From Branchiostoma floridae (taxonomy: Eukaryota; Chordata; Leptocardii; Amphioxiformes; Branchiostomatidae), in the NCBI RefSeq assembly GCF_000003815.2, contig NC_049994.1, positions 4,568,534 through 4,632,533 of the forward strand: a stretch of 64,000 bases of DNA, read 5' to 3'. Every line of letters begins with the position of its first letter. The first letter of the stretch is position 1. Positions 389 to 40,253 of the stretch are shown piece by piece. Under the pieces are notes generated by a model. It did no database searches, was not told the DNA's origin, and worked only from the letters and a program-made list of their open reading frames with translations. Position numbers and translations under genes: made by a program.

Positions 389-931
389 GTGATCGTTGAA
401 AAGAACCATATTTGTAGAGAAGATCAACCGAGAATAGGTCGCTCATATTGCTTTCTGGATCGTCTGGATCCACTAAAAATGTTACGTTTACGTTTTGTGA
501 AGTTCTGATGTAAAAAAAAAGTGTCTGCATGAGATATACATTTCATTTACTCTCATGACCACACGAAACAGTTTTGCATCTAATATACAGAATTACTTAT
601 TCATAGATACAAATTACTCATTGACCTCTAATCCCCTGGGGCCGTTATGGACTGGGTTAGCACAGCACAGGTGGGCCGCATAGGTCGGGCGATACCACTC
701 GTACGTTCGGTAACATCTCTTTAAAATTTGTTTTCACGAAATCACATCCAAGCAGTCTTCGAGAATATTGTAAGACTATTTATGGGAAGTTTTATTTTGG
801 TTGGGTTTGTGTATGTCGTGATTTGAATCTCTAGATAACTCGCTATCTTTGTTTTTTGTGTGTTTTGAGCCCGGGCGTCCATTTAAATGTAACCTGCCCT
901 CCCCCGTAAGGTGCCGCGGCCCTAACAAAAG

Positions 932-1031
932 ATGGCGGCGTTCTTCGTTCACGTCTGCAGATTCGGTGGTTGCGGGTTGACCTTCCCTTCCCTGGGCGAC
1001 CTCATACTCCACATCGAGGACCAACATATAG
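932..1031 (+). CDS. JAZF1: JAZF1 exon 1 (zinc finger 1)
   Basis: First coding exon of the JAZF1 orthologue, a nuclear C2H2 zinc-finger protein known in vertebrates as a NuA4/TIP60 complex subunit and a TR4 (NR2C2) corepressor. It encodes MAAFFVHV followed by CRFGGCGLTFPSLGDL and HIEDQH, a C-x4-C-x12-H-x4-H finger (C9, C14, H27, H32) nearly identical to the human N-terminus. The ATG follows a CpG-rich stretch, with GCAAAGATGG-like context. The exon ends in phase 1 at the donor G|GTAGGA. Joined to the other three exons it gives 672 nt and a 223-aa protein (human about 243 aa). The gene spans only about 8 kb. Confidence 0.95.
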
Positions 1032-1048
1032 GTAGGAGCCGTCCCGCG

Positions 1049-1163
1049 ACGTGCACGTCTCACGTGCGTGCTTTACGTGCACGTAGAACGTCACCGACGC
1101 TCGCGTCCTACAATCATGCGTCACGTACTGACAAAATGCGCAGCTTTGCTAGGTCACGTGACC
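1049..1163. promoter_or_regulatory. Cluster of ACGTG / CACGTG motifs
   Basis: Within 115 bp there are about seven ACGTG or CACGT cores. They include two full CACGTG E-boxes, and the last sits in the 12-bp palindrome GGTCACGTGACC at 1152-1163. Such cores are bound by bHLH factors (USF, MITF/TFE, MYC, HIF families). The cluster starts 18 bp after the exon 1 splice donor, where proximal regulatory elements are common. Which factor acts here is inference. Confidence 0.5.
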
Positions 1164-3201
1164 GACACAGTTTAGAGACTCTAGGGCGTAGATTTGACCG
1201 ATTTTGAACTAGCGAATCAGACAGATCGTTGTTTAGAGTTTAGCTACTTATTGTGCGTGAGATATGGTTGCCATGGTTACGCACCAGTGCTTTGATGTCG
1301 CCGGTAATCCAGGTGATGTAGAGTTGGACCTGTCCATTTATCCAGGTCAGCGGGGGTGGGCAGGGTTGATTTTATGAAGGTTGGAGAAGGCATGGTCCAT
1401 TGGGGCATTGATGGATCTAGTGGTAGTGCTTAATTAATATCTCGCAAATGCATTTCAGTTTGCAGTGTATCCATTTTGCGGTTAAGTGCAAATTAAGTTT
1501 TTGTGCTGGTTTTGAGTTAACAATAGCAATAGTCATGTAACGTTACTGCTACTAGTAATTAAAGGAAGCATGTAGAGTGACGCCTCTTTGGACAGCCAGT
1601 TAGAAATCTCCTACTGACAATTCTGTTACAGACATAACATTGTTTACAGCACATTTTTACATTTTGCTGTATTAACCATCACCAGAAGGTAACAAAATTT
1701 ATCGTTTGTTTTTTTCAAAATCAGACAAAAATCAATGCGTGTGCTGATGTCATCTATGAAAATGTACTTGCTAATTGGCCTTACTGAAAAATATAAGGAT
1801 TTTGCAAATAAGAATATATAGAAAAAGATCGTTTTGATTTTGGTTCAGTGAAAAGTTGTTGTTTTTTTTCTGATGCACTTGCCCTTTAGAAGTTTAGGGT
1901 TAACGGCACTGAACTTTAATCCAACACATTCCAGCATATTCAAAACTGAACCATAAATAAACGAGCAGGCTTTTGCGCATTCCAAAAACTGTTTAGTGCA
2001 TAGTTTACTATGTTTCTCCGGCTATTGCTACACATGCATTGGCCTGCAACTTTCTGTGGTGTCGCGAGAAAATAACACTTAAAAAAGAGTGTAACGGATA
2101 GCAAGTCCCTTGGGATTCTATTCCCAGTGGAACTTTAATCCAACATAATAATATAACAAGGCTGTTTATCTATGGATTTCATATTTACAACGACAAATTT
2201 GTATCAATTGGCAGGCACTTACTCAAGGTTAAATTGGCAAATCGGCATGTCAGTAAACTGCTGATAGTCGCGATCAAAACATGGCCCAAAAATGCTTCAA
2301 CCAGCGGCAAATCCGTTCTGCTGTTCTACTACACAGTTATGACGTTCTATGAAACTTTTCATCAGTTGTTTGGTAAGCAAATGGTGGCAAAATACGTTGT
2401 TTGTGAATGGCTCCCAAAAAATATACCCGCAAAACACAGTACAAACTCCCTACAGTACGTCCCCCATGTGGGGGCTGTTGGTATCGCCGGTGAGATCCAT
2501 CCTACTGGCCTTTGGATGTGATCACTTTCATAAATAGGGGTGAAGGGGCGTGCTGAAATATGATTCAAAATGGCGCGTGTTCGGATTTCCACTGAATTTG
2601 TGTAACAAAGCCTGGCCCTGTACTTTAAAGAGGGACACTTCAAGGCAGGTTGGCTGTGCTGGATGGACAGTTTATTAATATTTCGCTATATTCACTGTGA
2701 TGATTAATGTGTAATGTGAGGACAAAGAGTAGAATTGCTTGAAATTACAATCGCTGCCCTCCTCCCACGGCTTGATTAACGGCATGAAAACATACCGGAA
2801 GATTGATTAACTTGTCGCTGCAACGTGTGATCTTTGTGAGCTCAAACTTGCAAGGTTTTAAGTCGTATACCTTACTGGTTTTGTAAAGCACTCAAAAGAA
2901 TTTGCATACCGGAGCTAGTTTTTGACTGACAGATGGGTTCTGAAAAGTGTTGGATTAAAGTTGCGTTGGATTAAAGTTCAGTGCCGTTACGGGGTATTTG
3001 AATTTTTCAAGACTTGCCAACCCTTCCAAGATTATTACCATAGAGTGTGGACCACAATCTCAGTCATGTTCTGTACCATAACTGTTTGTCCTGAATCAAT
3101 AAAATTGTAACATCCAACCCAAAAGACTTAACTCAAACTTTTGACTGTCCAATCGCAGCATGCAATCTGCGGGCTCTTTGATGTCACGTTATACAGATAT
3201 A

Positions 3202-4752
3202 AGGGACCGTACGGTATTTAGCGAGGGGGGAGGGCCGGTCGCCAGGGGGGGGAGGGCCAAGCAAAAAAATATTTTGCCAGGGGGAGGGCCTAGCAAAAAA
3301 ATTTTGACTTGGGGGGAGGGCCAAGCAAAAAAAAATAGCTTGGTCTGCCAGCAAAATATGTCCCTTAAAATCCAAGAAACGGCGTTTCAGAGGGTCAAGA
3401 TTTCAAAATTTTTCTGGACCTCTGCAAGGGATCGCCCAAGGTTGGCGCTCGGGACACAGCGAAAATGCGAAAGGGAGGGGGCGGGGCTTATGCATGACGC
3501 CCTCGAAAACCTTTTTCACTTACAGAAATGTTATTAAACTCTAGAATTAGTCTGCCAGCAAAATTTACTCCTGTCTTATTGCCCTCAAAATGTAAGAAAT
3601 GGCGTTTCAGAGCTCGAGGGTAAATATTTGCAAATTTCCCTGGATCCCTTTTGACGTGACCGGCCTCGCGCCTTTGGTGACCGACATCGTGATAATGTGT
3701 TTGGGGGGATTTAATTTTGTATTTCTAAATTGAAATGCCATTAAAGTTAGCTTTGTTTGTCAGCAATATATTTCCCTCAAACTGAAGGAAATAGCTTTTA
3801 AGAGGGTCAAGATTTCAAAATTTTCCCGGACCTACCTTGCGATTCTTCGTGCCTTTGGCGCCGGACATGGTGTTCGGAACGTCGTTCTCAAAAACTTGAA
3901 ACCCTCGTATTTTTTTTTCATAGAAATGTCATCTAACCAGCAAATTTTCCCATAAAAAACTTAAAGCAATGCAGGAAATCGTGGCAAAAAAAAAGCGTGG
4001 CATTTCTAAAAGTAGTAAAAGATCTCCTGCAAGTCTGCGTTCTCACGCCCGCCGGCGGCTAGAGAGAGGCGACCGGTCCACCCCGCCGTGGGAAAATCAG
4101 AGTCACGCGTCGGCGCCCCCCTCCCCACTACAGTTTTGGTTAGTCGAATCGTGCTGTCGTTTTGGTTTTCATTTTTTTCCCCGATTTACCGTAAGTTATT
4201 ACCACCACAGAACCAAGAAAAAGTCCAAAATATATGTAAATTAAAAATAGTTTCCGTCAAGCCGCTCAGGCCCGCGAGCTTGCAATACGTAAATTTAGGG
4301 AGCGGGGCGCGCGCCGCTTCGTGGCGCAAATTTACTAGAAATTCAGATACAAATGCTTTTTAGGTGTTGTTTTAATATCAAAACAATGAAATAGCTTCTA
4401 TAAAGCAAATATTTATGCCTCTATGAAGCAGATATTTATCCCTCTATTAAGCAGATATTTTGAGCCATTCTGTTTTCCTATTTTTACTAGGGGTGAGAGA
4501 TCTGCTTCTCGATGGAAATCATGAAAAAGTATGACGCAAAGCACATTTCCAAATGGGAGCGCAGTGTTCTATTGGCGTCTTGAATATTTTTTTCAAAGTT
4601 GATAGGAGGGGGAGGGCCAAGCAAAAAAATTTTGACTTGGGGGGAGGGCCTAGCAAAAAAAAATTTACCTAGGGGGAGGGCCTAGCAAAAAATTTTTGAC
4701 CCGACCCTCTGGCGACCGGCCCTCCCCCCTCACTAAACGCCATACGGTCCCT
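3202..4752. mobile_element. 1.55-kb inverted-repeat DNA element
   Basis: The ends are inverted repeats of about 44 bp beginning AGGGACCGTA, with about four mismatches, followed inward by (G)n-rich blocks GGGGGGAGGGCC alternating with A-runs. The interior has about four degenerate copies of a roughly 200-bp unit containing CAGCAAAAT and GTCAAGATTTCAAAATTTT, starting near 3340, 3550, 3760 and 3930. No transposase frame is present and no clear target duplication was found, so this is a non-autonomous DNA transposon of unassigned superfamily. Confidence 0.75.
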
Positions 4753-5439
4753 AAGAACACGTGACTTGGTGAGCAGTGGACCATAAATTGCAGAAAGTCA
4801 ACGGCGCATCCCATCTGTGTTGAGAGATGTGAAGCACTGATGTAGATGGCATCTTTCATGCTAATCTTAGACTTTCTGCAACAATGTTAAGATCCTCATT
4901 ACAAATTTACATCTCACTCCTTGACAAAGACTGGATTTAGCCAGTCAAAAATTTCCACAAAAAAAGTCCAATTTTTGTGTTAGAATATTACAGTTCACCC
5001 AGATTGACAGTGTACCGGTACAAAACCATCTTTTTCTTGTTGGGCTGTTCCAGAAAAAACGGACCTGCATAAATCGATGGACGGGATGTTGGACCGATTC
5101 GAAAATGAACAGATTATACCGGCAGCCGTTCACATGTTTGAGGGCTTTCTGGTCCAAGAAAATAAGAAGAGTGAATTAAAGGAGAGTTGATAGTTATTGA
5201 ATTCTTACCAAGCTTCTACAGTCTTGGTCTAAAACAGAGGCATTTAGTGTTGTCTACATGACGAAATCCTTTGTACTTGTAGCGACATGTACCATTGTTT
5301 TGAGTATTGCCCGCTCACAAGTTTTCACAGATGATAAGACCTGATCCTCTGGACCTGGACCCTACCTGTACCTGAATTTCCTGTACCCACCCCTGACCAA
5401 CACAGATGAACTTTCATGTTATAAAACTCTTTGCTGTAG

Positions 5440-5619
5440 AATCGGACCCACTGACACTGGAGAAACAGGAGTTACAGCAGCCGTCCTCGCTCGCTCTGAG
5501 CTACATCCACCGCTTCATCACGGACGCGGCCCGGCGGGAACAGCTGGAGAACCTGAAGCGGAAACCTTCGCAGCGAGCGCTCTCTCCGGTGGCAGCTATC
5601 AGGAGCATCACTCCCACAG
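5440..5619 (+). CDS. JAZF1: JAZF1 exon 2
   Basis: Begins after the acceptor TTGCTGTAG and completes a split Glu codon. It encodes ESDPLTLEKQELQQPSSLAL, then SYIHRFITDAARREQLENLK, matching the human LEKQELQQPTYVALSYINRF block closely. The remainder is a basic and Ser/Pro linker that ends SITPT plus a split Gly at the donor GTAACA. The length is a multiple of three (180 nt), so exon skipping would keep the frame. The invertebrate linker is shorter than the human one, which explains most of the overall length difference. Confidence 0.95.
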
Positions 5620-6305
5620 GTAACATGCATGGGAAAGGCCGCCACCTTTCTGTTTGTAGCAGAACTGCAGTTGTATGTGTACCGTCCTTGAATCTTTGGA
5701 GCAAAAGTTATAGTTGAGTTGCGCAGTAGAAGGCGCAAAATGGGAATATGATTATAGAAATCCTTGGAAACCCTCGTTTTCCTTGAACATTTTGGCCCAA
5801 CCTGGAGCCTTTTGGGGTTAAAAGGAACAGGTAGGGTCTAAGCTTTCCCATTTTGGTCAAAATTTGCTCAGGTTAGTGCAGAAGGGTTTTAGTTGTTGGT
5901 TCATAGGTGGTATCAGAAGAAAACTGTTGTCAAAGGTGAGGGTTTTTTTCATAGAGGGAGTTTGAACCAATCAGCACCCTGTTTTATTCTAATGTTTACA
6001 AAGATGACTTGGAACTGTCTGGTGGAAAAAAATTTATACCTATAGGCTATAACTTTTCTTTTGCATTGTCATATAACAGTAACTGATGTTATACTAATTG
6101 CATTTTCTACCAACCATCAACAGTGTTTTCTATGCTTATAACGCACAGAAAACACTTAGCAGCTATCATTGATGATTTTGAATATGAACTACATAGTGTT
6201 AAAGTTAACAGCATGCCAACATTACTTCTTAATGTCTTCTTTCTCTGCAAAAGTAGTGTTACCATCAGAGGACATTGTTTACCTGTTTGTTTGTTTTGGA
6301 TGTAG

Positions 6306-6475
6306 GGAGTGAGTTTGACGATGATGACCTGTCTAGCGAGTCTTCAGACAGCGACAACTCGTGGACCACGAGCGATGACTTCACCTCCGAACTCATCCTC
6401 AACTCCATGACTCCATCCAGTAATGAGGAGAAACCATTCGCCTGTCCAATTCCAGGGTGCAAGAAAAGATACAAG
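6306..6475 (+). CDS. JAZF1: JAZF1 exon 3 (acidic region, start of zinc finger 2)
   Basis: Encodes the acidic and Ser-rich stretch GSEFDDDDLSSESSDSDNSW, followed by TTSDDFTSELIL and EEKPFACPIPGCKKRYK, the first half of the second C2H2 finger (C-x4-C). The same order occurs in human JAZF1. The exon starts after a TGTAG acceptor in phase 1 and ends in phase 0 at AAG|GTAGTT, so finger 2 is split between exons 3 and 4. Confidence 0.95.
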
Positions 6476-6830
6476 GTAGTTTATCACTCTGTGAAGGAGG
6501 CTGATGACCTCTCACAGGAGTATTGGTTTTTGTCTGTGTTTGTTCTACAGGTATAACCTCAAGATCCTTTGGATGGATTTGTTTGAATTTTGGCATGTCG
6601 GTAGTTATTGAAGGTTCTGGTGATGCATGGTGATTTTGCATTTCATTTTTAGAGTTATAGAATGACACCCCCATCTTGACAGTAGTATGGTACAGTCTAT
6701 TTTAACATCTGGTGATAGCCTGTACAACACCATCTCTAACTGCCTAGATCTTATTAGCTACTCTCCAAGCAGAGGTTAGGCAATCGGTCCTGATTACTCC
6801 TGAATGAAATAAAGGATTTTAAAGGAGTTG

Positions 6831-7311
6831 TTAGAGGGACATAATGTAGAAATATGGCGCCAAAATTTCAAATGTTCTGAACTTGAAAATCTGGGTCTTT
6901 TTATTACATTTCTAGTGCTTATTAACAACGTCAAAGTAAGCCGCGACCAAATTCACTTACTTCCGGGTAGCCTACCGGAAGTAAGGCGACCGTAGATTTC
7001 AGAATCGACCGTTGTGGTCGCAGATCTTCGGAGCTTAGCGGGGACTTTCAACAAACTTCAGTAATTATTCGAGCGAACCACCGAACGCGTTCTAAAGCGC
7101 ACTTTTGCTCGCCGGCGAGTTGAATAAAATGGCGGACAACTCAAGCGGCGGAGGGCTCATATTTCAAGACATCCTCACGGCTCAACAAAGGCAACAAAGT
7201 CGTATCCATACGTTGTAAATATTGCAGTGCATTGTAATAAGGTAGACTCAACTCATTATGTAGAGAAATGACCGAAAACAGTAACTATAATTTTACATTA
7301 TGTCCCTTTAA
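6831..7311. mobile_element. TTAA-type (piggyBac-like) MITE, copy 1
   Basis: A 481-bp element bounded by TTAG/TTAA with terminal inverted repeats starting AGGGACATAATGTA. A second copy lies at 53179-53682 in the opposite orientation. Inside are a GGCGCC motif near one end, a 30-bp palindrome at 6956-6985 (CTTACTTCCGG, 8-nt spacer, CCGGAAGTAAG), and ATGGCGGACAAC near 7129. The TTAA target preference is the mark of piggyBac-type elements. It has no coding capacity and lies in JAZF1 intron 3. Confidence 0.8.
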
Positions 7312-7454
7312 GAAATTGTTAAATAGGGTACCAAACACCTTAGCTCACATAGCAAGCAACACAATTTCTTTACAATTACAGAGGTTATTGTCCTAGGAAC
7401 TCTCCTTCAATATGCAATTGATATCATTGTGTAAAAAAATCATGGAACATGATC

Positions 7455-7810
7455 TGGTATCAAAGCCTGCAAAAAACAACAACAAAGCAACAGAAGAATA
7501 AGATTTTTAAAAAGTTTATTGTCTGTTCTAGTACTAGTATCTATCTTATCAGGTGTCCTGAAAGTAAAGTCACTGATCGCTGCTTACACCTGTGGCCTAA
7601 GGTGATAATAGATGCTTCTAAGGGTATCAAGTATCAAAACTTGCAAAAAATAACAACAAAGCAATAGAGAAAGCAAAAAAAAGTATTTACAAAAAGTACA
7701 CAAGAGTTTATTGTCCTTGTATCTATTTTATGAGGTGTTCTGAAAGTAAAGTCACTGAACGCTGCTTACACCTGTGGCCTAAGGTGATTAAGAATGCTTC
7801 TAAGGGTAAG
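7455..7810. repeat. Tandem duplication of about 180 bp
   Basis: Two adjacent diverged copies share TATCAAA.CTTGCAAAAAA, AACAACAAAGCAA, TGAAAGTAAAGTCACTGA and CACCTGTGGCCTAAGGTGAT. It lies in JAZF1 intron 3 and has no coding signal. Confidence 0.75.
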
Positions 7811-8392
7811 AATGTTCAGTCATTAAGTCTCAAAGCCCAGATGTCTTGGGGATACCTTAAACCCTTAAGATTGCCCATTCTGTTTGTCCTTGACATAAGG
7901 GTTTGGTCCTCTGCTTTCTTGGGTATTGATGGCGCATTAAGAGAATGCTGTCTGACAATCCTTTATGGCTATTTCCTTCTTACATGCATTTTCTGGCAGT
8001 GTCTTGGCTTGAAAATGCTTTTAGGTTCTTAACTGGCCATTCTACTGATGTAAGCATTAAGACAATAATCTGTCAAGAATAATGTCTTGAAGTAATTTCC
8101 TTGAAGGAATTTGGTACCAGTATTGAGATAAATAACACTTGTGTAACAACTGTCCTCCAAAAAATGCTTTGTCTTCTTACAAATATTGTGTACTGTTGAC
8201 TTTAAAGCCCTTGAAAAATAATAATTATTGTAAGGAGTAGGAAGCAGCTGTAAAATGAGCAAATTTGTACCATAGATTGAAAAAAAGTTTCAGAAAACAG
8301 ATGCTGGTGCCATTTCCAAGGCCAAAGAATAAGAATGCAAAAGAACAAAAATGAAGACCATACTCTGTGTGTTTAGTCATTTGTTCATCCAA

Positions 8393-8482
8393 TTAGATTT
8401 CATAATAAAGACAACCTGACTAATTAGATTTCATGATAAAGGCAACCTGACCAGTTAGATTTTATAATGAAGGCAATGATTT
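8393..8482. repeat. 31-bp unit, three tandem copies
   Basis: Three copies of TTAGATTTCATAATAAAGRC plus AACCTGACTAA-like sequence. The unit resembles the interior of the MITEs at 11134 and 52371, so this is probably a fragment of that family. Confidence 0.65.
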
Positions 8483-8609
8483 TTTGGCCAAACTTTACCA
8501 AACGAACACTCAGCCATTGCACTCAGTCACACAGTACCTGTATGGGCATTGTTATCCAGTGTTTATACTTGTTTGTATGACTTTATTCCCTTGTTGTGTT
8601 CTACTCCAG

Positions 8610-8831
8610 AACGTGAACGGTATCAAATACCACGCCAAGAACGGACACAGAAACGACGGCAAGATCAGGAAGGCGTATCGCTGCCACTGCGGAAAGAGTT
8701 ACAAAACTACTCAGGGTCTGAAAAATCACACGCTATCCCAGCATCCACCGATATCGCGCCAGTTGTCGGGGGCAACGCAAGTTGGACACGCCCTGATGCC
8801 GATGCTCCAGCATCCGGAGATGGCCAACTAG
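8610..8831 (+). CDS. JAZF1: JAZF1 exon 4 (end of finger 2, finger 3, C-terminus)
   Basis: Starts after CTACTCCAG in phase 0 with NVNGIKYHAKNGH, completing finger 2 (H-x4-H). Next comes the short-loop finger YRCHCGKSYKTTQGLKNH...H (C-x-C-x12-H-x4-H), as in human. The C-terminal tail SRQLSGATQVGHALMPMLQH ends PEMAN at TAG (8829-8831). The tail after the fingers differs from vertebrates. The presumed 3' UTR continues rightwards and begins with a fold-back repeat about 40 bp after the stop. Confidence 0.95.
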   Translation, partial: NVNGIKYHAKNGHRNDGKIRKAYRCHCGKSYKTTQGLKNHTLSQHPPISRQLSGATQVGHALMPMLQHPEMAN

Positions 8832-27959: not shown

Positions 27960-28107
27960 AAAGATAGATTGACTTTATTACGTCAATTACCAAAGACGGG
28001 TGCACCCCGAACCGGGATGCCCTACCCATGTTTGAACCAAGGTCTTGCAACTACTAACTGATTGGAGCCAGGAGGCTGCTACCAGTTGATCCACAAGAAC
28101 ATCCCTA
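27960..28107 (-). mobile_element. tRNA-like SINE, second family
   Basis: On the minus strand the head is GGATGTTCTTGTGGATCAAC TGGTAGCAGCC (A-box-like), then CCTTGGTTCAAACA (B-box-like), then GGGCATCCCGGTTCGGGGTG and a tail GTCAATCTATCTT. Parts of the same family recur at 49185-49325 and 49440-49556. Confidence 0.7.
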
Positions 28108-28699: not shown

Positions 28700-28808
28700 T
28701 ATCTGACCCTTACCTTCCTCATTACCTCAACGACAAGTGACTTGCAGGTCGATTTTAGCTTCTCATGAATAGATAAATGTTCAAACGTTAGTTCAAACAA
28801 ACATACCA
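28700..28808 (+). repeat. Retroelement 3'-end family, copy 2
   Basis: Shares ATCTGACCCTTACC, ATTACCTCAA, GATTTTAGCTTCTCATGAAT and a trailing GTTCAAAC with the copies at 18645 (minus) and 34122 (plus). Confidence 0.7.
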
Positions 28809-29051
28809 GAAATTTTAGATCTGCCCCTTCATCTCGCATGCGATTCCTTTTACCTCGCTCATCATAGGATAAACTAAGCAGATGTGACTGCAATTCCACG
28901 CCAATCCATTACCACATATTACCTTACTGGTACACAGGTGCTCTCACCCTTAGATAATTGGAGTAGCTATCTCTCTCCTTTCATACTTCCGGTATGTGAC
29001 TGCCTTCAGACGAATACTCCCTCATTCGTGCAAAACAGATTCCGACAAACC

Positions 29052-29249
29052 CTTAGTACTATAGTCTCTACCAGACTCCGCGTCACTGGAAAACCGTAGA
29101 AATTGAACAAATAGAGGAGTAAGCCGGCCAGAGGAGAATAGCCGTAGGTCGCGTACTGTTCCCTGGCCGGCTGCACTCCTCTGGCCGGCTTACTCCTCTA
29201 TTTGTTCCATTTCTACGGTTTTCCAGCGACCCGGAGTCTGGTAGAGACT
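29052..29249. mobile_element. MITE with 75-bp inverted ends, copy 1
   Basis: Arms starting AGTCTCTACCAGACTCCG continue through AACCGTAGAAATTGAACAAA and TAAGCCGGCCAGAGGAG. The flanks show GACAAACC at 29044-29051 and 29250-29257, an 8-bp duplication of hAT type. The left end has a short insertion before the arm. A second copy is at 47872-48085. Confidence 0.8.
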
Positions 29250-29257
29250 GACAAACC

Positions 29258-29639
29258 TTCAGCTTAGAGCAGACCTGTACGTGGTCATTGTCATGCGCTT
29301 GCGCCATTTGCCTTGCTACAAGACCATGCTAATTTGTCCTATCTAATAACTATTCTATAGATTTGACTTAATAATGTATGTGTGTTGTTAAGTTGATTTA
29401 TTCTGATTTGAGCTTTATGTTGATTACGCTATTTGTTCTTATATTGTATTTATGTATATCATTATCTTATGTTTCATTGTTATGATTTCGGTATGGCTTT
29501 TTAAAAATGTGTCTTCTGACAGCTGTTCCGCCATACCCTCCATTGTCATTGTATAAGGAGAATCTCAATCAATAAATGAATAAAGTAAACATCTTGATAT
29601 TACAGTGTTATGGTGATTTAAAGCATAATTGCAATATCA
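29258..29639. other. AT-rich spacer, possible LINE 3' end
   Basis: Ends in CCATTGTCATTGTATAAGGA followed by AATCTCAATCAATAAATGAA. This resembles the 3' tails of the LINE fragments in this window, but no coding part is attached. Confidence 0.4.
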
Positions 29640-30480
29640 CATTGGTGATTGGACGCCAGAGCTACCCACAATGCCAATGTGTATTACACCGGTCAAGCTT
29701 TGGGACTTTCACACTACCCATAATGCCATTGCGTATTATACAGATGGCAGCTTAAGAGCTTTAAAATTACCCACAATGCCTTTGTGTATTACGCTGGTGG
29801 CAGCGGTCGCACTGTATACAAGGACACTCACAAAACCCACAATCCCTTTGTGTATGGTGGCAGCGATGGTATTTACACACTTCCGGTATACCCACAATGC
29901 CATTGTGTATCATACTTGAGGCAACGGTGGAACTTCCACACTAGCTACAATGCAATTGTGTATTACACTGGTGGCAGCGGCGTTACCTTCATACTTCCGG
30001 TATAACCACAATGCACATGTGTATTACATTGGTGGCAAAAGTGGAACTTTCATACAACCTGCAATTCCATTTGTGTATTATTCTGGTGGTACTTCATACT
30101 TCCGGTATACCCGCAATGACATTGTATACTACTACTTGTATTACACTAATGACAACGGCAGAACTTTTTATACTTCTCACGATCCCTTTTTGCAATACAC
30201 TAGTGGCAGCGGTGGTACTTTCATACTATACCTACAATGGCATTGTATACTAGTACATACATGTATACAAATGTATTACACTAGCTTGAGGCAACGGTAG
30301 AAGTTTCACACTACCCACAATGCCAATTGTGTATTACACTGGTGGCAGCGGTGGGAACTTCACACTTCCAGTATATCTATAATGACATTGTACATGTAAT
30401 ACACTCGTGGCAACGGTGGAACTTTGGTACTACCCACTATCGCATTATGTATTACACTGGTGGCAGCGGTGTCCACAGTA
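29640..30480. repeat. Degenerate tandem array, unit about 52-60 bp
   Basis: About 14 copies of CCCACAATGCCATTGTGTAT TACACTGGTGGCAGCGGTGG-type sequence, each with ACTTTCACACT or ACTTCCGGTATA at the junction. The array ends 28 bp before the first recognised exon of the EF-hand gene, so it is probably in that gene's intron or promoter region. Confidence 0.85.
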
Positions 30481-30508
30481 CTCTAACTGACTTCCCCTGT
30501 CTCCCCAG

Positions 30509-30650
30509 ATTGGTGCGTGTCTGTGCTGAGCCTCATGCTGATTATGAACGCCTTTGGTCACCGCTGCGTTGCTCCTTTCCATGCCGGTCAGCTGATTCGT
30601 GTGGGGAAATCCGGAGAGTGGAAGCGCCCAGCGAGAAGGCCACCATTTAG
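30509..30650 (+). CDS. Small secreted EF-hand protein, N-terminal exon
   Basis: Open exon between the acceptor CCTGTCTCCCCAG and the donor TTTAG|GTAAGA. It encodes WCVSVLSLMLIMNAFGHRCV, then APFHAGQLIRVGKSGEW and KRPARRPPF, ending in a split Arg codon (phase 2). The hydrophobic VSVLSLMLIM stretch followed by small residues looks like a signal peptide. Met9 and Met12 of the exon could start translation, or an upstream exon may supply the start; I did not find one. The following KRP and RR sites could be processed. Phase and sense continue exactly into the exon at 31461. I do not recognise the family. Confidence 0.65.
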
Positions 30651-30828
30651 GTAAGAAACCCACATTTTCACATTTCTACACATTCAAGTTCATGCTCGCA
30701 CATACAGATATACTGTACATGTGGAGTCGGCAATATGGATGTGTACATGTGACTTATCCCTACGTCATGTTTAAACTTCAACGTCTTCATTGTTGAGGAG
30801 GTTCATCAGTCACGTATGTGTATAATTG

Positions 30829-31055
30829 CTAGCAATTTTCTTCCAATAGTAACTGTTTTAAAGGTAGAATACGTACCTCCAAATTGTCGATGTCTGACAA
30901 CACATCTTGGTCACGGAGAATGGCCTAGTCTCCATCTCGCGAGAGAACACGAGACTAGACCAGGCTTGTGTGACCAACATGTGCTGCCTGACATCGAAAA
31001 TTTTGAGGTACGTTCTCTACCTTTAAAACAGTCACTGTTGGAAGAAAATGGCTAG
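30829..31055. repeat. 227-bp fold-back with arms over 100 bp
   Basis: Left and right halves are near-perfect inverted copies: CTAGCAATTTTCTTCCAA, ACTGTTTTAAAGGTAGA, ACGTACCTC, TCGATGTC, TTGGTCAC and CCTAGTCTC on the left, matched in reverse on the right. Only a short centre (about 20 nt) is unpaired. It lies in the intron between the first two known exons of the EF-hand gene. Confidence 0.9.
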
Positions 31056-31460
31056 TAACCATTCAACATCTTCAATTTCCATTTCCATGTTTATTTCATA
31101 TGATAGTCAATAAATGCGGCACCATTGAAACGGCCATGATTGAAATTACAATATAACTTACCACCTTTACCAAAAAGACTTCGTTCAATTGACTTCTAGT
31201 AATCATTGATTTGTAGAAGGTCTGAGATGATTATTAGGAATAAACATTGCAAGAAAGATAGATATTCATTATTTTATACCACTTACTAGACTTCTAGTTC
31301 TTTGTAGGGCTAAACATGGAAGGGGTATTAGAAATTCTGAACATAAGCGAACAACATGTTTCATACTAGGGCTTATGACATAGACTTGTTCTCTGTAGGG
31401 ATACACATGGAACATGTATTTAAAATTCTGAATATAAATGAACAATATGTTTTATATCAG

Positions 31461-31573
31461 GACGTACGATGTAGACTTAGACGGAAAAGTGTCGTCCGAC
31501 GAATGGCATCGTGTTGAGGAAATGTTATCCGGATGGCCTGCTGCCGAGATCTTCTCTCTCTTGGACAGAAACG
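31461..31573 (+). CDS. Small secreted EF-hand protein, exon with EF loop 1
   Basis: Follows TTTTATATCAG and completes the split Arg, then TYDVDLDGKVSSDEWHRVEE, MLSGWPAAEIFSLLDRN. DVDLDGKVSSDE is a canonical 12-residue EF-hand calcium loop (Asp at 1, 3 and 5, Gly 6, Val 8, Glu 12). The exon ends in phase 1 at ACG|GTGAGT, inside the second EF loop. The helix EIFSLLDRN leads into that loop. The conserved ligands indicate calcium binding; its partner and site of action are unknown. Confidence 0.85.
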
Positions 31574-32064
31574 GTGAGTCAAAGTTACAGCTCCTCAAAG
31601 TCGTCCGATTTCTCGAAAACGAAATTTTTCTTAACCCCAAGCCTGCTAAGGTTGGTACCAAATTCGTATTGGTTATTTGATTAGGCAGCAGAGAGAGGTT
31701 CCAAATGGAAGAAATACAGGCTCTTCAACAAAGAACAATGTATAGCCTGTAATTTTTTCTCCGTCGTGCACGCATGCATGCTCTCATTGAAACTTTTCGT
31801 CGTCTTCGTTTCAAAGTTGGCTAAGGAGTTTTCCTTTCGAGGGAAACTCCCTCTCTTCTTTCTAGACAAACTTCCATCCGCGGCAAACACCCTTTCCCGT
31901 GGCATTCGAGCCTACTTTGAAACAAGCCAATTAGCGCCCCTAACCCCATAAAATAAAAGCGGCCCCGCTAGAAGTCTGCTAATTAAATAAAGAGGCTATC
32001 ACGATGATCGTACATTTGTTGAAAATATTCTACTAATGCTCGACATTTTTTTTTCCTGCTGCAG

Positions 32065-32180
32065 AAGACGGTTGGCTGACCAAGCCCGAATTCAACACCG
32101 GAAAGCAGCGACTTGGCGCTAAAGACTGGAATTTTGCAAGGCCTACATCCGGGATTTCCAAACGCCTGATCGGAGTTTAG
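32065..32180 (+). CDS. Small secreted EF-hand protein, terminal exon (EF loop 2)
   Basis: Starts after TTCCTGCTGCAG and joins to give DRNEDGWLTKPE, a second canonical EF loop (Asp 1, Asn 3, Asp 5, Gly 6, Leu 8, Glu 12). Then FNTGKQRLGAKDWNFARPTS and GISKRLIGV to TAG at 32178. The two loops form a standard EF pair. The three exons give a protein of about 115-123 residues. A 112-bp fold-back MITE sits 16 bp after the stop, likely in the 3' UTR. Confidence 0.85.
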
Positions 32181-32195
32181 AACAACAGATCAATC

Positions 32196-32308
32196 ATAGC
32201 CTGGTATACATCCGTATTGCAGCTCCCTAGTCTCTTCTGTTCTCTCCGCAAATACTTCGAGAGGACAGAAGACACTCGGGAGCTATAAAACGGCTGGAGC
32301 CCAGGCTA
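32196..32308. mobile_element. Fold-back MITE with AGCCTGG ends and 8-bp duplication
   Basis: Arms ATAGCCTGG...CAGCTCCCTAGT and its imperfect reverse copy, ending CCAGGCTA. The flanks are GATCAATC at 32188-32195 and 32309-32316. Almost the whole element can fold on itself. Confidence 0.8.
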
Positions 32309-32316
32309 GATCAATC

Positions 32317-32963
32317 GACGATATTAACTCATGATTCTGCACAGGACACACTGGATGGACAATGACCGTTATAAGACGGAGAAATGAGAACACATAAGAT
32401 GTAAAATTCACACGTTCAGTCAACCACAAAACAATGTAACAACAAACAGTATAGCTAACAGGAAAAGGGCTTTGAATGTATCAAGCCTTAAAAGTCATCC
32501 ATCACGACACGGCATGATCATGTGAAATATAAAAAAACAGAACAATGATAGTTATGATAATGTGTTTAGAAGGAGCATGTGCTGTATCAACCGGCTAAGA
32601 CAGAAATAATCTGCTTTGAAACCTTAACGCTCAACTTCGTGTGTGTACATTGCATTTGCATTAGTATGAAATAACAGGACTAGTGTATTTGTGACATCTT
32701 AAATTACAGGGCCGACAATGGTTTAGGATAGATATGCTAGATCCGACTGCAATATCGCTTGTTGTGCATAACTACAGTAACGTTTAATTTTGTGTTCAAA
32801 CGACGTTTCGGTAACAGTTTCACACCTTCCCCATGACAATACTAACTGCTTCTATTACGCCCTGCAGCTAGGCGTCGCTTTTAAACGTAGAGTTTAAACA
32901 CCATACACATTGATGTTTACTTACTTTACGTTTGTGTCCACATTTGTAAGAAGCGACACCTAC
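32317..32963. other. Intergenic, no gene seen
   Basis: AT-rich. CTGCAGCTAGGCGTCGCTTT near 32862 echoes the exon-donor sequence at 32964 and 35044 (CTGCAG|GTAGGTGTCGCT). This hints at a further decayed copy of that exon end. Confidence 0.4.
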
Positions 32964-33074
32964 CTGCAGTGCGTAACAGAAACAGTCAATATTGCCATGA
33001 CGAATGTGACAGACGGTCACAAAAACTACAGTTTGACTAAAACACTTGGTTTCTGTAGAAAGAACTTTGTTTCC
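32964..33074 (-). pseudogene. Decayed copy of the signal-anchor exon at 35044-35170
   Basis: The minus strand shares CCAAGTGTTTTA, GTCTGTCAC and the identical junction CTGCAG|GTAGGTGTCGCT with 35044-35170. Relative to that exon it has small indels that disrupt the matching frame (stops TAG and TGA in the hydrophobic part). Another minus-strand frame is open through it but has no ATG. It looks like a duplicated exon that has lost function, or an exon with a changed frame. Confidence 0.5.
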
Positions 33075-34121
33075 CAGTGACTCACCAAAATATTCTCGGA
33101 AATATGGCTTATTGCACGTGCTATGAAACAAGGGACAGTTCGTTTGTCATTATTTAGGTTTCCCACGGAATACAATGTCTACCAATATTTTCCTTCGCGT
33201 TATAGAGGCATGATGACAAACTTCTGATGACTCTGTGTTTCTTCAAATGCTTCAACACTCAGTAACCACACTGAAATTTACTTGTGTTTTGTTTGATTTG
33301 GTTCCTTCTTAGGTTTCACGATAGCTATAACTTTGCACACATATAGTAATAGACGCCAGATGTCACTTTAAAAATTTATTGTTACTTTCACACTGTAGCT
33401 GATCAACTATTGGTAGCTTCACAGTTGAGCTCCTGAATCCAATTATTTAGTAACTGAGACCACGGTTAAATACGTAGGGCGTTGTGTTGCACCCTTTTGT
33501 CGCAAAGGTGGCATCTCACTGCACTTGGGGCACCCGTGCGGCACTGTGTGGGGTTCGTTTACTGCGGCACTGTTGTGTTATTTCTTTAATAATTTAGATA
33601 TTTCGTAATACGTAAAAGTATAATTTAGAAGACAACAAAATACAAAAAACGTACGAAAATTCGTTCTTTATCTCTGAAATTCGTTGAGGATCTTTCAAAC
33701 CCTGCAGTGCCGCACCGGTTCTCTAAGTGCAGTGAGATACCACCTTTAGGAACGTAAAATGTGGGTCCACGGTGTTCTAAAAGACCTGTGCCTCGGGCTC
33801 GTTTAGTGGGAAGGGCTAGCTGTAGAAATATACCCCGCTACTGAAACAGCACTACAAGTGTGATTTAACAAACTGTCAAACAAATGAACGACCACCTCCT
33901 GTATCCTCCCCCAGTTCCTCCTTTATTATGTCGTCACAAGTTACGGTTGCAGCATTTGTCTATCGCCCACACCACCCACTCACTGGATCACCCTTGTGGC
34001 ATACCATCATTACGTCAAACCATATACTGTAACAGTGGGATTCAATCACCGCCAACCGACAATGCCAAACGGCTGTCAGCCTTTTAGCGTAATCGGTTGC
34101 CTGTAGCTTTATTACATTGTA
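33075..34121. other. Intergenic, no gene seen
   Basis: No motif-bearing frame. GTGCCGCAC and CAGTGAGA sequences near 33510-33560 recur in inverted order near 33700-33745 (CACTGCACTTGGGG... versus ...AAGTGCAGTG). This suggests an inverted-repeat element of about 250 bp with degraded ends. Confidence 0.4.
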
Positions 34122-34235
34122 TCTGACCCTTACCTCTATTATGACCTCAATGAATAGCGGCCTGCTGGCCGATTTGAGCTTCTCATAAATAAATAAAGGT
34201 TCAAACTAACAAACAAACAAACAAACAAACAAATC
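34122..34235 (+). repeat. Retroelement 3'-end family, copy 3, with (CAAA)n tail
   Basis: TATCTGACCCTTACCTCTAT, GACCTCAATGAATAGCGG and GATTTGAGCTTCTCATAAAT, then AATAAAGGTTCAAACTAAC and (AAAC)n. The AATAAA and the tail mark it as the 3' end of a retrotransposed sequence. Confidence 0.75.
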
Positions 34236-35043
34236 ATCAAACGGAGGGTTGTGTGTTTTGGGGGTATCTTTTCAACTCAACTATATTCGTCAATGAGCAT
34301 TCCTTCTACATTCTTAAAAAAAGGAGCTAAAACTTTATTAATTAATAGCCCTGCACCACGAGAGAACCACCAAGTCTTAAAACCGCTGTAGTTAATTCCA
34401 GAAACTGCGTGAAAATCAACAATCTGTCTGGTGTGCACAGCACAGGGTTCAGTACAACTGTTGGGGAACAGATGGGTTATAATATATTGATTAACCAGAT
34501 GCTGCATCCTTGTTATAGTGAAATAAATGTACTACATATGGCAACTTATTGCATAACATCATATTCGAAGCAAAACGTGGTATCTGTCCTGCTGGCTATT
34601 TTTGACGGATTCAACCTCCTATACCTGATGGCTTCATCAGATACGTAAAACTTGACCTGTTCTGTGCTGCTGCTGCAGATTTACTCCCCCATTCGTTGGG
34701 CTTTGCAGCGGTGTGTAACTTTTACATGAGAAATATCCCAAACTCATGACAATACAGCTCAGCATGCCATGGCTTAAATATGTCGATCCCGTTTATAAAC
34801 GGACCTAGCAGGACAAGGGTTTTAAGATCCACAAAGAGCTGACTAACTGCGTTAAGATTACATCCAAAAGATATTGTTGCGAATTACCCTGAAGCTTTAC
34901 TTGTGGCTACTAGTAATATCTTACTCTTCCAAAGAACAATGGCAGCCAAACGACACAATTAACGAAAAATAAGCCAGCACATGGACTTTCTACGTGTATT
35001 TGTAAATACGTTTGGGACCGCATCTGTTAACAGCGACACCTAC
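34236..35043. other. Intergenic or intron, no assigned exon
   Basis: If the exon at 35044-35170 is real this is its first intron. A minus-strand frame at 34277-34507 (CTEPCAVHTRQIVDF, FKTWWFSRGAGLLINK) follows an acceptor-like CCCCAACAG. I cannot link it in frame with confidence. Confidence 0.4.
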
Positions 35044-35170
35044 CTGCAGACCACAACAGAACGTCAGAATTGATCTGAGGAAAGTGACAGACGATCATCA
35101 AAACGACGAAGATCTTGATTAAAACACTTGGTTGTGTATAAAAATCTTTGTTATCCAAGACTGTAGCCAT
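35044..35170 (-). CDS. Candidate first exon with a signal-anchor-like segment
   Basis: On the minus strand, AAAATGGCTACAG starts a frame of 42 codons plus one base: MATVLDNKDFYTQPS, then VLIKIFVVLMIVCHF (15 hydrophobic residues), then PQINSDVLLWSA. It ends at a strong donor CTGCAG|GTAGGT. Sequence before the ATG is GC-richer and untranslated. This looks like the first exon of a secreted or type II membrane protein transcribed leftward, just 3' of the RFamide gene. The rest of the gene was not identified. A decayed copy lies 2.1 kb away at 32964-33074, so a local duplication occurred. Confidence 0.45.
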
Positions 35171-35934
35171 TTTAAAACTCGCGAAAACGAGGGCGTGAGC
35201 TTTAGGGCGTGTCTAACATGGCGTCTTCCTCCAGCAGCAATGATTTAATCTCATACAGAAAAGATTTTCTTTCAAACGAGAAAAATATCTAATTTTATTT
35301 ACACATACCGGGTGTAGAGAATGTTGTTGTGGACTTAGTCAACTGTCATCAGCTATTTCATGTCAATTAATCGATAATAAACTAGATATGGACTTCCTAT
35401 AGCGAAAGATAACTTTACCCATTGAAGGACGTTGACAACAATGAACACATCAGTCTTGATGAAGTTTTTTTACTTTTTTTATTTGCCTTTTTAAATGTTT
35501 TTAGTTCCCGGTGTAACAACATAGGGTGTACTGACTGTGCCGTACATTGGTTGACACCGTACAAGGTGGGTCTACTGACCATCAGGTATGACCACTACCT
35601 CAGCTTGACCACTTGTCTTGGCCTATCTGTAGTTGTCTTTGGTCTGGGCTCTTTGGCCTCAATATCTTTGAATGAACACTAATCTGACTGTAATTTATTC
35701 TTGTATATCGTTCAGCCTTCTAGTGACGCTGAAGAAGAGTGATAGATATCACTCAAAACGTCCTGAAGTAATTCTCCGTTTTCATCCAGTTGTAGAGATT
35801 GAATTGTATTTGAGTAATGTTTACCTGGATGTCTAACCTTCATAAACGTATCGCCCAGTCTGGCAAGGCCGTTTTCTTTTCATCAATAGTATGACGTCAT
35901 TTGGCATGACGTTTTACATTGATTTTTGGACATA
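35171..35934. other. Spacer between the candidate exon and the RFamide gene
   Basis: 35428-35463 (+) encodes DVDNNEHISLDE, which has EF-loop ligands at 1, 3, 5 and 12 but Glu instead of Gly at 6. It lacks a proper flanking exon. The rest is non-coding, and part is probably the RFamide 3' UTR. Confidence 0.4.
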
Positions 35935-38716
35935 TCAGTCCGCCGTCCCACCGTCCCAAGTCCCTTTTGAGTAAGTCTCGGGTAGACGTTGCGCTTTGAC
36001 CAATTCCTCGTCAAATCCTTCGATAAGAAATACGTTGTTACCATGGGTACTATTTCTAGTTTTTATGTTCGTCCTTTTCTCGGTGGCTTCTCTTTCCTTA
36101 CCTTTGCCAGGGAGTAGTGGACTAGGATGATTGGCCTCTGATTTAGCTGAATTAGACTTGCGTACAATGATGTCATGTGGACTCCAATGCTGTTCTATCT
36201 GTTCTTGATTTTTGTGAGGCTTAATGCCTTGACGAGGATGCCCATTGTTGAGGATGTCGCCTCCTGTTTTCGATAGTTTGATATGATTCGTGTTATCTGG
36301 GGAAGTGCTCTTTCTAGAACTATGCGTACGCTTGAAGGGTGGGAGGGCATCATGGTGGTCTCCAGGAATCGTCGTCATGTGTTCATGTGTAGGCAGATTG
36401 TCGCTAAGAGAACGCTGTCTCTGTCCACTGTTGTTCAAAACCTTACGGAATGGACCATGGACGTGAGCTACGATGTACGCCTTGGGAATCTTCCATTCTT
36501 TCTTCGCTCTTTTCCCCAGTCGCAGAATGCGGCCATTCAGTGCTCTCTTCTGAGGCCCCGAGTAGTTTCTACCCACGGACTGGTATCTCCCCTTAGCCCT
36601 TATGCTGTCATCGCCAGAGAGATATTTTCCGATTCTCCACTTCTTGCCTAGCCGGATGACGGGACGCAGGTACTTCTTTTTAAGCCCAAAGATGCCGCGT
36701 TTGGCTCTCTGATGCTGATGAACTTGGCCAGAAATCGTGCCGATCAGAGGAGGTTTTGAGTCCGAGCCTTTGTGAATCGCTTCGGGGGTGGTTAGTATTG
36801 GAAGCTTTGACTTACCATCTGGGGTCTGGAAAGCTTCTAAAGTACTGCCGTTATCCGGTGGTATTACTGATCGACGTTCTCTGTGCGTTGGAGCGTCGCA
36901 GCTTGAATTATGCACTAAGCCAAGGCAGTCTTGGGATGGTTCTCCCCGATGGTTAAGAAGAGGTAACCGTGAATGTTGGTTGTCCTGACCACGACCTAGA
37001 AGGATCAATCGACCCCTTATAGGTTTTTTGTCGATACTCCTACGATCAATTCTGATTACCTGTTCTGTTGGATGTGACCTCTTCACCTGTTTGATTTGAC
37101 CTTCTGGTTTCCAACCTTTTTCATTTGGAACGTCATGGTGGCTGACTTTGTCGGAGATCTTTTCAAAATTGTTTCGTGTTCCAAACCGCTGCATGAAGAT
37201 CAACTTGTTATTTTGAAGGTCTCGTTTTCTGGAAGAGTCGTCCTCAATCTCACCGCCTGTTCGTTTTCCAAATCGACTGGCAAAGTAGTCGACGTTTTTG
37301 CCGCCATTCCGTTTCCCGAAACGACTTGTGAAGTCGCCATCTTTATTCCAACTGTCGCCTCGCTTTCCAAACCGACTGGAAAACTTGTCGCCGACCCAAC
37401 GGTCATTTCGTGTCCCGAAATGGTTTGTATCTTCCTCTTCATCCCAACTGTTGCCTCGTTTTCCGAACCGGCTTGCAAACAGATCATCAACCGCATGGGG
37501 GCCTCGTTTTTCGAAACGGCTTGTCAAGTCAGCTTCATCCCAACTGTTGTCTCGTTTTCCAAACCGACTTGCGAACAGTTCTGCTACAACATGGTTCCCG
37601 ATTCGTTTCCCAAAGCGGCTTGTAAAGTCGTCTTGATCAAACCTGTAACTTCGTTTTCCGAACCTACTGGCAAACTGGCTGATGGCCCCTCGGTTTTCTC
37701 GTTTTCCGAAACGGCTGGTGAAGTTGTCCTCATTTCCATTAACCCTTCGTTTTCCAAAACGACTGGTAAACTTGTCGTTGTCCAGAGGGTTGCTTCGTTT
37801 GCCGAAACTGCCTCTGGCGTCGTCTTGGTTCCAACTGGCGTTTCGTTTTCCAAACCGGCTTGCAAACAAGTCGTCAACCCAGCGGTTGTTTCGTTTTCTG
37901 AAACGGCTCGGAAATAAAGCTCCTGGCTCCCGTCTTCCAAAGCGAGTCATGAAATTCCACGACCTGCGCTGCCAGTTCCAAAGTGTCCGGGGAAATTTTT
38001 CCGAAAGATCTCTTTTTCCCAAACGCATTACAAAACGCCTTTTTGAGAAAGGGTTCACGAAATTTGGCAACAGACTTTTCTTTCCAAAGCGACTGACAAA
38101 TTGTGACCGCTTCTGGCTCAGTGGCTTTGTTACAACACTCTCAAGCTCAGAACGTTTGCTATCGGGGTAACTAAATGCAAAAATATTCCAAAAATCCGTT
38201 TCTTTTTCAAGTTTCCAGACATTGTCATAGATTTGTCTATTGTCATCGCTAGTAACAAAGGACATTGGCCAAATGTCAAGCTCTCGTTTGCCTAGAAATA
38301 CGAGTCTTATCCATCTCTCCTTGTATTGACCTCTGATTGGAGGAGCTTTGTCATGTTGTTTCTGCGTGCGAGCCCGCTTCCACTGATTATGGGTCAGGTT
38401 CCACGATTGGCTTTGCTTCTCGATGATGGGGAGTGAGACCGCATTTTCGTCCAATGGCTGACGTTGTTGGTCAGGATTGCTGGGCTGGATGCCATCTTCT
38501 CCAGGCGTAGAGATACCGTACCTTCTGTTACGAATCCTCTCATTGGTTGCAAGAGGGACGTTGACTACTTGCTCTTTGGCGCCGTTCATATCATCGCTCG
38601 ATTCTGCCTTACCAGCCATTTCCGCCAGGTGGCTCCAATGACACGTTGGGCATATTTGGTACAACTTTGACTTCTCTGAATCTTTCAAATCTTTTGGCCA
38701 TTTACGGATACTGCAA
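35935..38716 (-). CDS. RFamide-type neuropeptide precursor, main exon
   Basis: Large terminal exon of a secreted prohormone, entered at ACACAG|TTGCAG and joined in frame to 38928. A proximal part with one WIRLVFLGKR site is followed by a block of about 19 modules (37177-38106). Eleven read xSRFG plus KR or KK (VSRFGKK, FASRFGKR, FTSRFGKR, FSSRFGKR) and one reads SWNFMTRFGRR. Gly before dibasic residues predicts cleavage by prohormone convertases and C-terminal amidation, giving peptides such as NNRWVDDLFASRF-amide. Decayed modules include FPSRFRKR, LTSRFEKR, TNHFGTR, DSSRKR and MQRFGTR. A distal part has RFVMRLGKR-like ends in VIRLGKK and RILRLGKR. The stop is at 35935. The C-terminal 190 residues are hydrophilic with few sites. 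Confidence 0.92.
37177..38106 (-). repeat. In-frame RFamide module array
   Basis: Modules of 14-17 codons repeat without frame breaks. The variable N-terminal spacer (NRWVDDL, DNSWDEAD, NGNEDN, SYRFDQDD) is rich in acidic residues and Asn, while the last seven to eight residues are constant. FAS and FTS endings partly alternate, suggesting duplication of two-module blocks. Confidence 0.9.
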
Positions 38717-38927
38717 CTGTGTAAAAAAAATGGAGATTTGCTCATCAGAAAAACATGCATATGCGATATGACCCGAAATACATGAAATGATGAATAACAA
38801 ACAAAACGTGTGTAAGCTACCACGAGAGGTCTCGTTACAAGAGTCATAATGTGTAGTGGTAGTTATGCAAATTCACTATGGATGAACCAATCATTGCGCA
38901 GGAAAGTTAATAGGATCATCTCCTTAC
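38717..38927 (-). other. Phase-2 intron of the RFamide precursor gene
   Basis: Donor GAGGG|GTAAGG at 38927 and acceptor TTTTTTTACACAG at 38717. Joining 38928 to 38716 makes a Gly codon and keeps the frame into CSIRKWPKD. Confidence 0.8.
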
Positions 38928-39568
38928 CCCTCACTGTGACAGAGAGTTGGCCAGCTCACGACTCCTCTGTTCTGATCTTTCCTTCCTGTCGTAAAGACTT
39001 TGTTGGGCAAGCTTCTTAATGTGTTTCCTCCTTGGCGATTTGATGGCAAGGGAGGAGGCTCCTTAACATCGCGTCCTGGATATCCTGTCGTCTTCGTTTT
39101 GCGTCTTCCATCGTGCTGTAACTTCTTAAGACGTGGATCACCTGTGATCTCTCTTATTACACCTGTGTGAGGAACTGATGCCTTGACGGCGTCAGAAAGC
39201 TGACGTCTCAACCGTTTTTGGTACCTAGGAGCGTTAGCTCCTGTCATCTCGTCCGGTGCCCATGGTCTCACGGCGTTTCCTCTTCCATAACTTCTTCCGA
39301 CTTCCATCTGATTGGTTACCGCTGGGGGACTTGTCTGCGTCATGGACTGATCTTCGTCCCCAAGCCACTTCCTGTTTGCTGCATTCTTTGTGACGTCACT
39401 TCCCATTAGGGTAGGACTGTGTGGTCCCTGATTGGCTGATCTTGTAACCTTGGTGATGAGCTGGTTGATTGATTGCCGGTTGTGTTGTCCATGAGGGAGG
39501 CGGTCGTGAGGATACGTTGATGCCAGGACAGTAGGATGGCCCACCACGGAGACCAAGAGGATCATCAA
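38928..39568 (-). CDS. RFamide precursor, signal-peptide exon
   Basis: Encodes a hydrophobic start LMILLVSVVGHPTVLAS, then the polar TYPHDRLPHG. A long basic, hydrophilic propeptide follows, with dibasic sites (YQKRLRRQL, DPRLKKL, DGRRKTK), to CHSEG at the donor GTAAGG. The exon starts after a strong acceptor (CTTTTCTTGTCACAG|TTGATG). Either the ATG at 39565 is the start, giving a 16-residue signal and a 1,139-aa precursor with the main exon, or an upstream exon adds the n-region. No upstream exon was identified in 39569-42000. This exon supplies the secretory signal that the main exon lacks. Confidence 0.8.
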
Positions 39569-39854: not shown

Positions 39855-40253
39855 TACACCTTTCTCACGCGGCGTCCATGATAGATCGAAGACGAGGTCA
39901 ATGAGGCAAGCAGACAGAAATTATTTCTAAAGTTAGCTCCCATTTAGATTACCTCCAAACAACACAGATTTTCGCAATATAAGATCAAATAATAAATATC
40001 ATAACAAGTGTTATGCACCAAAAGATGTAGCAGTTTATAGTAGGCGTAGCCTGATCCCACAGTCCATTAAGAGATGCAAAATAAAAACATGATAATGCAA
40101 ATATTTGACAGACATGTAGCCGAATCTCTTATTGGTTGCTTTCCTAATTGGCAGGCTATTATTGGTTGAACTGCTAATTATGATTGATAGTCTTTCCTTT
40201 GCCTCATTGAACTCGTTTTAGACATATCATGGCCGCCGCGTGAGAAAGGTGTA
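39855..40253. mobile_element. 399-bp MITE with TA target duplication
   Basis: Inverted arms of about 53 bp start TACACCTTTCTCACGCGGCG and include CCATGATA and TCAATGAGGCAA. TA flanks both ends (39853-39854 and 40254-40255), so it is probably Tc1/mariner-like. It sits directly upstream of the RFamide gene. Confidence 0.8.

Follow-up and report, generated by a model that had tools for sequence, protein, structure and literature searches.

The 64,000-nucleotide stretch of Branchiostoma floridae DNA analysed here (the window; C16:4568534-4632533, NC_049994.1, from a genome of 513,431,437 bases) very probably carries a lancelet (amphioxus) gene whose single large, secreted product is cleaved to yield about 12 similar Phe-x-x-Arg-Phe-amide signalling peptides. 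In our gene model, positions 39568-38928 and 38716-35935 of the minus strand are spliced in phase to give a frame of 1140 residues followed by a stop codon.

Gene structure

Exon 2 (38928..39568, minus strand) encodes a hydrophobic start (LMILLVSVVGHPTVLAS) and the N-terminal spacer, and was delimited by its 213 open codons, its codon score and the splice scores; it is immediately preceded on the same strand by TTTTCTTGTCACAG, which ends at 39569. A phase 2 intron placed by splice-site scanning (38717..38927, minus strand, GTAAGG...TTTTTTTTACACAG) separates it from exon 3 (35935..38716, minus strand), which holds the peptide-bearing part and the stop codon within a stop-to-stop frame of 975 codons. 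The junction of 38928 to 38716, on which the preliminary description depended, finds support at the sequence level: the donor GGG/GTAAGG at 38928 has the top score among the 49 GTs scanned, the acceptor at 38716 has the most pyrimidine-rich tract among 15 AGs, and both are in phase 2. On these signals, the two exon ends are plausible.

The length of the frames points in the same direction. When the window was shuffled (order-2, n = 100), the longest frame reached 244 codons (mean, 170), to be compared with 975 for exon 3, and the 213 stop-free codons of exon 2 were matched in none of 20,000 simulations. The codon score of exon 2, trained on exon 3, was equalled by 9 of 2000 background stretches; since the two other sense frames also exceed the background mean, this score alone cannot single out the reading frame of exon 2.

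The weakest part of the model is the hydrophobic secretory start described previously for a separate exon. Of all 12-residue stretches in the precursor, the most hydrophobic (LMILLVSVVGHP) does lie at its start, but the putative signal peptide is short and contains His and Pro, and the first Met (39565) may be other than the true initiator. None of 32 candidate coding exons within 12.4 kb upstream was compelling. It is conjecture only that a TATAAA (40034..40039, minus strand) upstream of exon 2 and a donor GAG/GTAATC (intron from 39952) mark an untranslated first exon. About 235 bases beyond the stop codon follows an AATAAA polyadenylation-like signal (35694..35699, minus strand), and just downstream of the gene a short exon-like frame with a hydrophobic stretch (MATVLDNKDFYTQPSVLIKIFVVLMIVCHFPQ; 35027-35212, minus strand) was seen, for which no Pfam match was found.

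Genomic surroundings

Open frames at 926..8828 on the plus strand, about 27 kb from the precursor gene, contain CRFGGCGLTFPSLGDLILHIEDQHIG, LEKQELQQPSSLALSYIHRFITDAARREQ, EEKPFACPIPGCKKRYK and NVNGIKYHAKNGHR; by their likeness to the vertebrate protein we take them to be exons of a JAZF1-like zinc-finger gene, and they give weak C2H2 matches under the Pfam cut-off and one weak zinc-finger match in PDB. Farther along the same contig (4.66 Mb), some 55 kb past the precursor gene, lie the exon-like frames L034 9256-9480, presumably an ATXN7L3/SGF11-like exon, and L035 4082-4357. A search of the genome with PF07888 yielded no TAX1BP1-type neighbour. Elsewhere in the window, a reverse transcriptase is read in two overlapping frames at 21422-24240 on the minus strand (RVT_1, E 1.3e-30), in our judgement from a non-LTR-like retrotransposon. 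Adjoining it at 24345-26366 is a minisatellite with, by eye, a unit of about 14 codons; several of its frames, on either strand, are free of stops over as many as 674 codons, and it is probably non-coding. Six-frame Pfam searches of window positions 1-21001, 26401-35400 and 39601-63902 gave one doubtful match, to DUF3915 (E 0.0054).

A homeodomain query found 43 matches in the genome, the four closest to Antennapedia (86-98% identical) at 10.46-10.58 Mb of contig C16; we take these for the Hox cluster. The precursor gene, at 4.60 Mb, is on the same contig, more than 5 Mb away, and this sharing of the Hox-cluster contig is new. A WRPQRFG-basic pattern has a single match in the genome, at position 6501678 of contig C6, in a frame with three WRPQRFGR repeats of which the first is WDEAWRPQRFGR. 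The amphioxus peptide published as PQRFa-1 is WDEAWRPQRFa (PMC6200920, PMC4133751), and by its sequence the C6 frame is the counterpart of the published PQRFa precursor; the assignment of our DNA to a cephalochordate, made from the letters alone, accords with the presence of this Branchiostoma precursor in the same genome. The PQRFa gene (C6) and the Hox cluster (C16) thus lie on different contigs, which is relevant to the Hox-linked synteny argument in the literature.

Peptide complement of the precursor

The precursor contains eleven SRFG modules (ten followed by KR, one by KK) and one MTRFG-RR in a single open frame, exactly as first described, and when all 64 kb were scanned in six frames, the 12 RFG-dibasic motifs found all fell inside it. 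The eleven SRFG-dibasic motifs compare with 0.05 per shuffled window. RFG motifs account for 12 of the 19 X-Gly-dibasic sites in the precursor.

On the minus strand, and read from the N-terminal side, the predicted peptides SQFVSRF-amide (SRFG-KK, 38077..38106), FVMRL-amide (RLG-KR, 38011..38034) and SWNFMTRF-amide (MTRFG-RR, 37930..37962) stand before an array of thirteen 16-17-residue units (37261..37890), which was defined by period and codon analysis and consists of ten FxSRFG-KR, one GSFG-KR, one LTSRFE-KR and one NHFGTR. The C-terminal third adds YLRPVIRL-amide (RLG-KK, 36640..36672) and ALNGRILRL-amide (RLG-KR, 36508..36543), both again on the minus strand; together with FVMRL they make up the three RLG-dibasic peptides, and these predicted R-L-amides are a second, smaller peptide class in the precursor. 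The array is partly decaying, because several units have lost the Gly or the cleavage site: FPSRF-RKR and LTSRFE-KR are without the amidation Gly, and NHFGTR and FMQRFGTR are without a dibasic site.

All 12 RFamide peptides share the form F-x-x-R-F-amide. Each has an F four residues before its end, and this F played no part in choosing them. For the amidated peptides, calculated MH+ values are 1430.7175 (GPHAVDDLFASRF-NH2), 1638.8135 (NNRWVDDLFASRF-NH2), 1539.7550 (SNPLDNDKFTSRF-NH2) and 869.4628 (SQFVSRF-NH2).

Selection on the repeat units

For codon comparisons we used thirteen of 22 basic-site segments, namely those spaced at 16-17 residues. Nine segments, with ends at residues 426, 439, 448, 464, 471, 475, 487, 710 and 727, were omitted; among them, FPSRF-RKR (residue 487) keeps the spacing to its neighbour and was dropped because it has no Gly slot. 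Among the thirteen, pN/pS is 0.23 in the eight-residue F-x-S-R-F-G-K-R slot (pS 0.60, pN 0.14) vs 0.79 in the eight preceding linker residues (pS 0.68, pN 0.53), and the core value was below that of the linker in 300 of 300 bootstraps. The peptide is therefore conserved, and its sequence is, as judged from these codon comparisons, under purifying selection. The contrast shrinks to 0.53 (core) vs 0.87 (linker) when all 22 segments are compared, among them decayed and unrelated ones. A first codon comparison (pN/pS 0.03) was set aside, its 11 modules having been chosen by the same residues that were compared. Because their synonymous sites are strongly diverged, the units look old, with the amidated ending kept while the linkers drifted.

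Database and literature searches

When the exon 3 protein was searched against its own genome at E 0.001 or better, it matched only itself. An SRFGKR pattern with Ser coded as AGY only, loose enough to accept SSFG and a Ser at its end, gave 25 matches in the whole genome vs 22 for its reversed control; ten of the 25 lie within 600 bases in the precursor gene, and the other 15 are scattered singly in about the number expected by chance. For eleven of these 15 the surrounding frame has no more than one Gly-dibasic site, and the other four were viewed for context only. Neither the protein search nor the pattern search, which misses arrays using other Ser codons, found a second SRFG array in the genome.

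No Pfam family for the precursor and no PDB match for the exon 3 frame appeared up to E 1, and nothing reached the gathering score in Rfam. The two exon frames, searched apart, had no NCBIfam match either, a null that carries little weight because the library is prokaryote. In the open literature searched, no precursor named for SRFamide turned up, and SRFGKR-type strings occurred in papers on phage lysins only and in no neuropeptide precursor.

Comparison with known RFamide families

Protostome FMRFamide precursors carry numerous short RF-amides set off by dibasic sites, and the resemblance in layout to which the preliminary description pointed stands. It does not reach into the sequence, because the FxRFamide ending, whose FMRFamide-type bearers have been termed a uniquely protostomian invention (PMC4062910), is absent: it occurs in 0 of 12 peptides, F being placed one residue further out here, and the protostome FMRFamide type was rejected by motif. 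The same description had held up the high copy number as a contrast to chordates. This was overstated, because the B. floridae NPFF/GnIH precursor 2 has seven peptides, Bflo2_1-7, according to the legend of Figure 2 in PMC4062910. That precursor is likewise cephalochordate and multi-copy, but its peptides are reported there as PxRFamide/LRFamide. Since the GnIH/NPFF type is defined by a C-terminal PxRFamide (PMC4062910), which none of our 12 peptides has, it too was rejected by motif. The amphioxus PQRFa precursor (Osugi et al., 2014; PMC4077772) resembles the present one in being from Branchiostoma and in holding several amidated RFamide peptides, yet it has three peptides with a PQRF ending where we find 12 RFamide peptides with F-x-S-R-F, and the contigs differ.

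QRFP, PrRP and F-type SALMFamide were likewise rejected, by copy number, gene structure or ending. In the QRFP type, a 25-residue peptide is present once only (PMC4062910), to be set against about 12 shorter ones here. In precursors of the PrRP type the peptide region is interrupted by a phase 1 intron, and one candidate with such an intron is reported for B. floridae (PMC7314547), whereas the intron modelled here, at the exon 2/3 junction to which this comparison applies, is in phase 2 and outside the RFamide peptides. F-type SALMFamides end in FxFamide (PMC9400282); in our 12 RFamide peptides S or T, not F, precedes RF. The deuterostome RFamide WFMRFamide of Saccoglossus (PMC10508912) resembles one unit, SWNFMTRF-amide, in a comparison at the peptide level only. 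Counted from the amidated residue, the published kisspeptin rule (PMC4062910) places Asn at 7-8 and 5-6 residues and F/W at 3-4 residues. Chordate kisspeptins share with our peptides an F placed four residues ahead of the amidated one, and the vertebrate ones also the amidated RF, but both Asn together with the aromatic residue are present in just one of the 12.

Alternative explanations

Might the array be nothing more than a minisatellite that happens to be open in one reading frame? It has a 48-base period, of which Tandem Repeats Finder reports three copies with 67% matches. However, the core residues are kept in spite of strong divergence at synonymous sites, the open frame runs far past the array, and the equal pN/pS in core and linker that a neutral repeat would lead one to look for was not found, so that we consider this explanation close to negligible. 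A former neuropeptide gene, now decayed or silent, would account for the units without Gly or cleavage site, but the 1140-codon frame is uninterrupted, the splice signals are good and the core is constrained, and such a fate appears very improbable. The remaining alternatives accept a working gene and concern its descent. Kisspeptins end in N-x-F-G-L-R-F-amide, and our peptides have their F position in common with kisspeptin and QRFP sequences. The present gene could be a kisspeptin-type precursor expanded to many copies, in which F-x-S-R-F-amide, with an acidic residue two before F, derives from this ending, and its products could be ligands for some of the amphioxus kisspeptin-type receptors, of which B. 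floridae has 16 vs 4 precursors (PMC4062910). Many-copy SALMFamide precursors have likewise been proposed to encode ligands of echinoderm kisspeptin-type receptors (PMC9400282). Because the F position is shared in this way and 7 of 12 peptides have N or D at each of the two kisspeptin Asn positions, an origin on the kisspeptin side is the best single rival; against it, the two-Asn plus F/W arrangement is confined to one peptide and the third position from the end is Ser/Thr instead of Leu, and we regard it as possible though unlikely.

Human NPVF lies near HOXA and JAZF1. This makes it conceivable that the precursor gene, on the Hox contig and with a JAZF1-like neighbour, belongs by descent to the GnIH/NPFF side and has lost its PxRF ending, all the more as the published PQRFa gene is on C6 while the four closest Antennapedia-like matches share C16 with our gene, and vertebrate GnIH and NPFF are found by HOXA and HOXC (PMC4077772). 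Yet C16 makes up 3.7% of the genome, the co-location was spotted after the fact, the distance to Hox is large, and PxRF is missing throughout. Moreover, the PQRFa peptides already act on an amphioxus PQRFa receptor, and the scaffold of their gene is reported with GnIH/NPFF neighbours (PMC4077772); in the literature searched, no paper joins NPVF, JAZF1 and synteny. We therefore hold such a descent to be improbable, somewhat more so than one from the kisspeptin side.

Proposed function and biological meaning

That the locus contains an RFamide neuropeptide precursor, as originally proposed, is upheld by the repeated X-Gly-dibasic modules in one frame and by their constrained core, and a functional neuropeptide precursor gene of Branchiostoma is, on this evidence, highly likely. 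With no PxRFamide, no FxRFamide and a single kisspeptin-rule peptide among 12, it works like a multi-copy RFamide precursor yet fits none of the families tested, and it may represent an undescribed or lineage-specific RFamide family. Following established processing rules, the precursor should enter the secretory pathway, be cut by prohormone convertases at the dibasic sites and then trimmed, whereupon PAM would convert each exposed C-terminal Gly to the amide. The predicted products are about 12 peptides, 7-14 residues long, that end in F-[A/T/S/V/M]-[S/T]-R-F-amide, and a few R-L-amides, with one product of 29 residues where NHFGTR breaks the series. These peptides presumably act jointly on a single RFamide-type G-protein-coupled receptor or a small set of them; our guess would be an orphan from the kisspeptin-type or NPFF/GnIH-type sets of amphioxus, the latter of which is likewise reported as expanded (PMC4062910). 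The many near-identical copies suggest dose or redundancy, not many separate messages.

It is a speculative and rather improbable extension of these findings that the gene belongs to an undescribed Hox-linked chordate FxSRFamide system whose peptides are ligands for orphan amphioxus RFamide/kisspeptin-type receptors, and that it is the positional counterpart of vertebrate GnIH/NPFF; the PQRFa gene on the other chromosome would then be a paralogue and not the sole ancestor-like gene. The placement of the precursor gene on the Hox contig makes a GnIH/NPFF origin testable by synteny. RFamide-like immunoreactivity has been reported in lancelet neurons, and the FxSRFamide gene might explain it. Its peptides are candidate ligands for the amphioxus RFamide and kisspeptin-type receptors, which outnumber the known precursors. 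The lancelet FxSRFamide precursor shows that many-copy RFamide genes arose in the chordate line as well, in a layout comparable to that of protostome FMRFamide.
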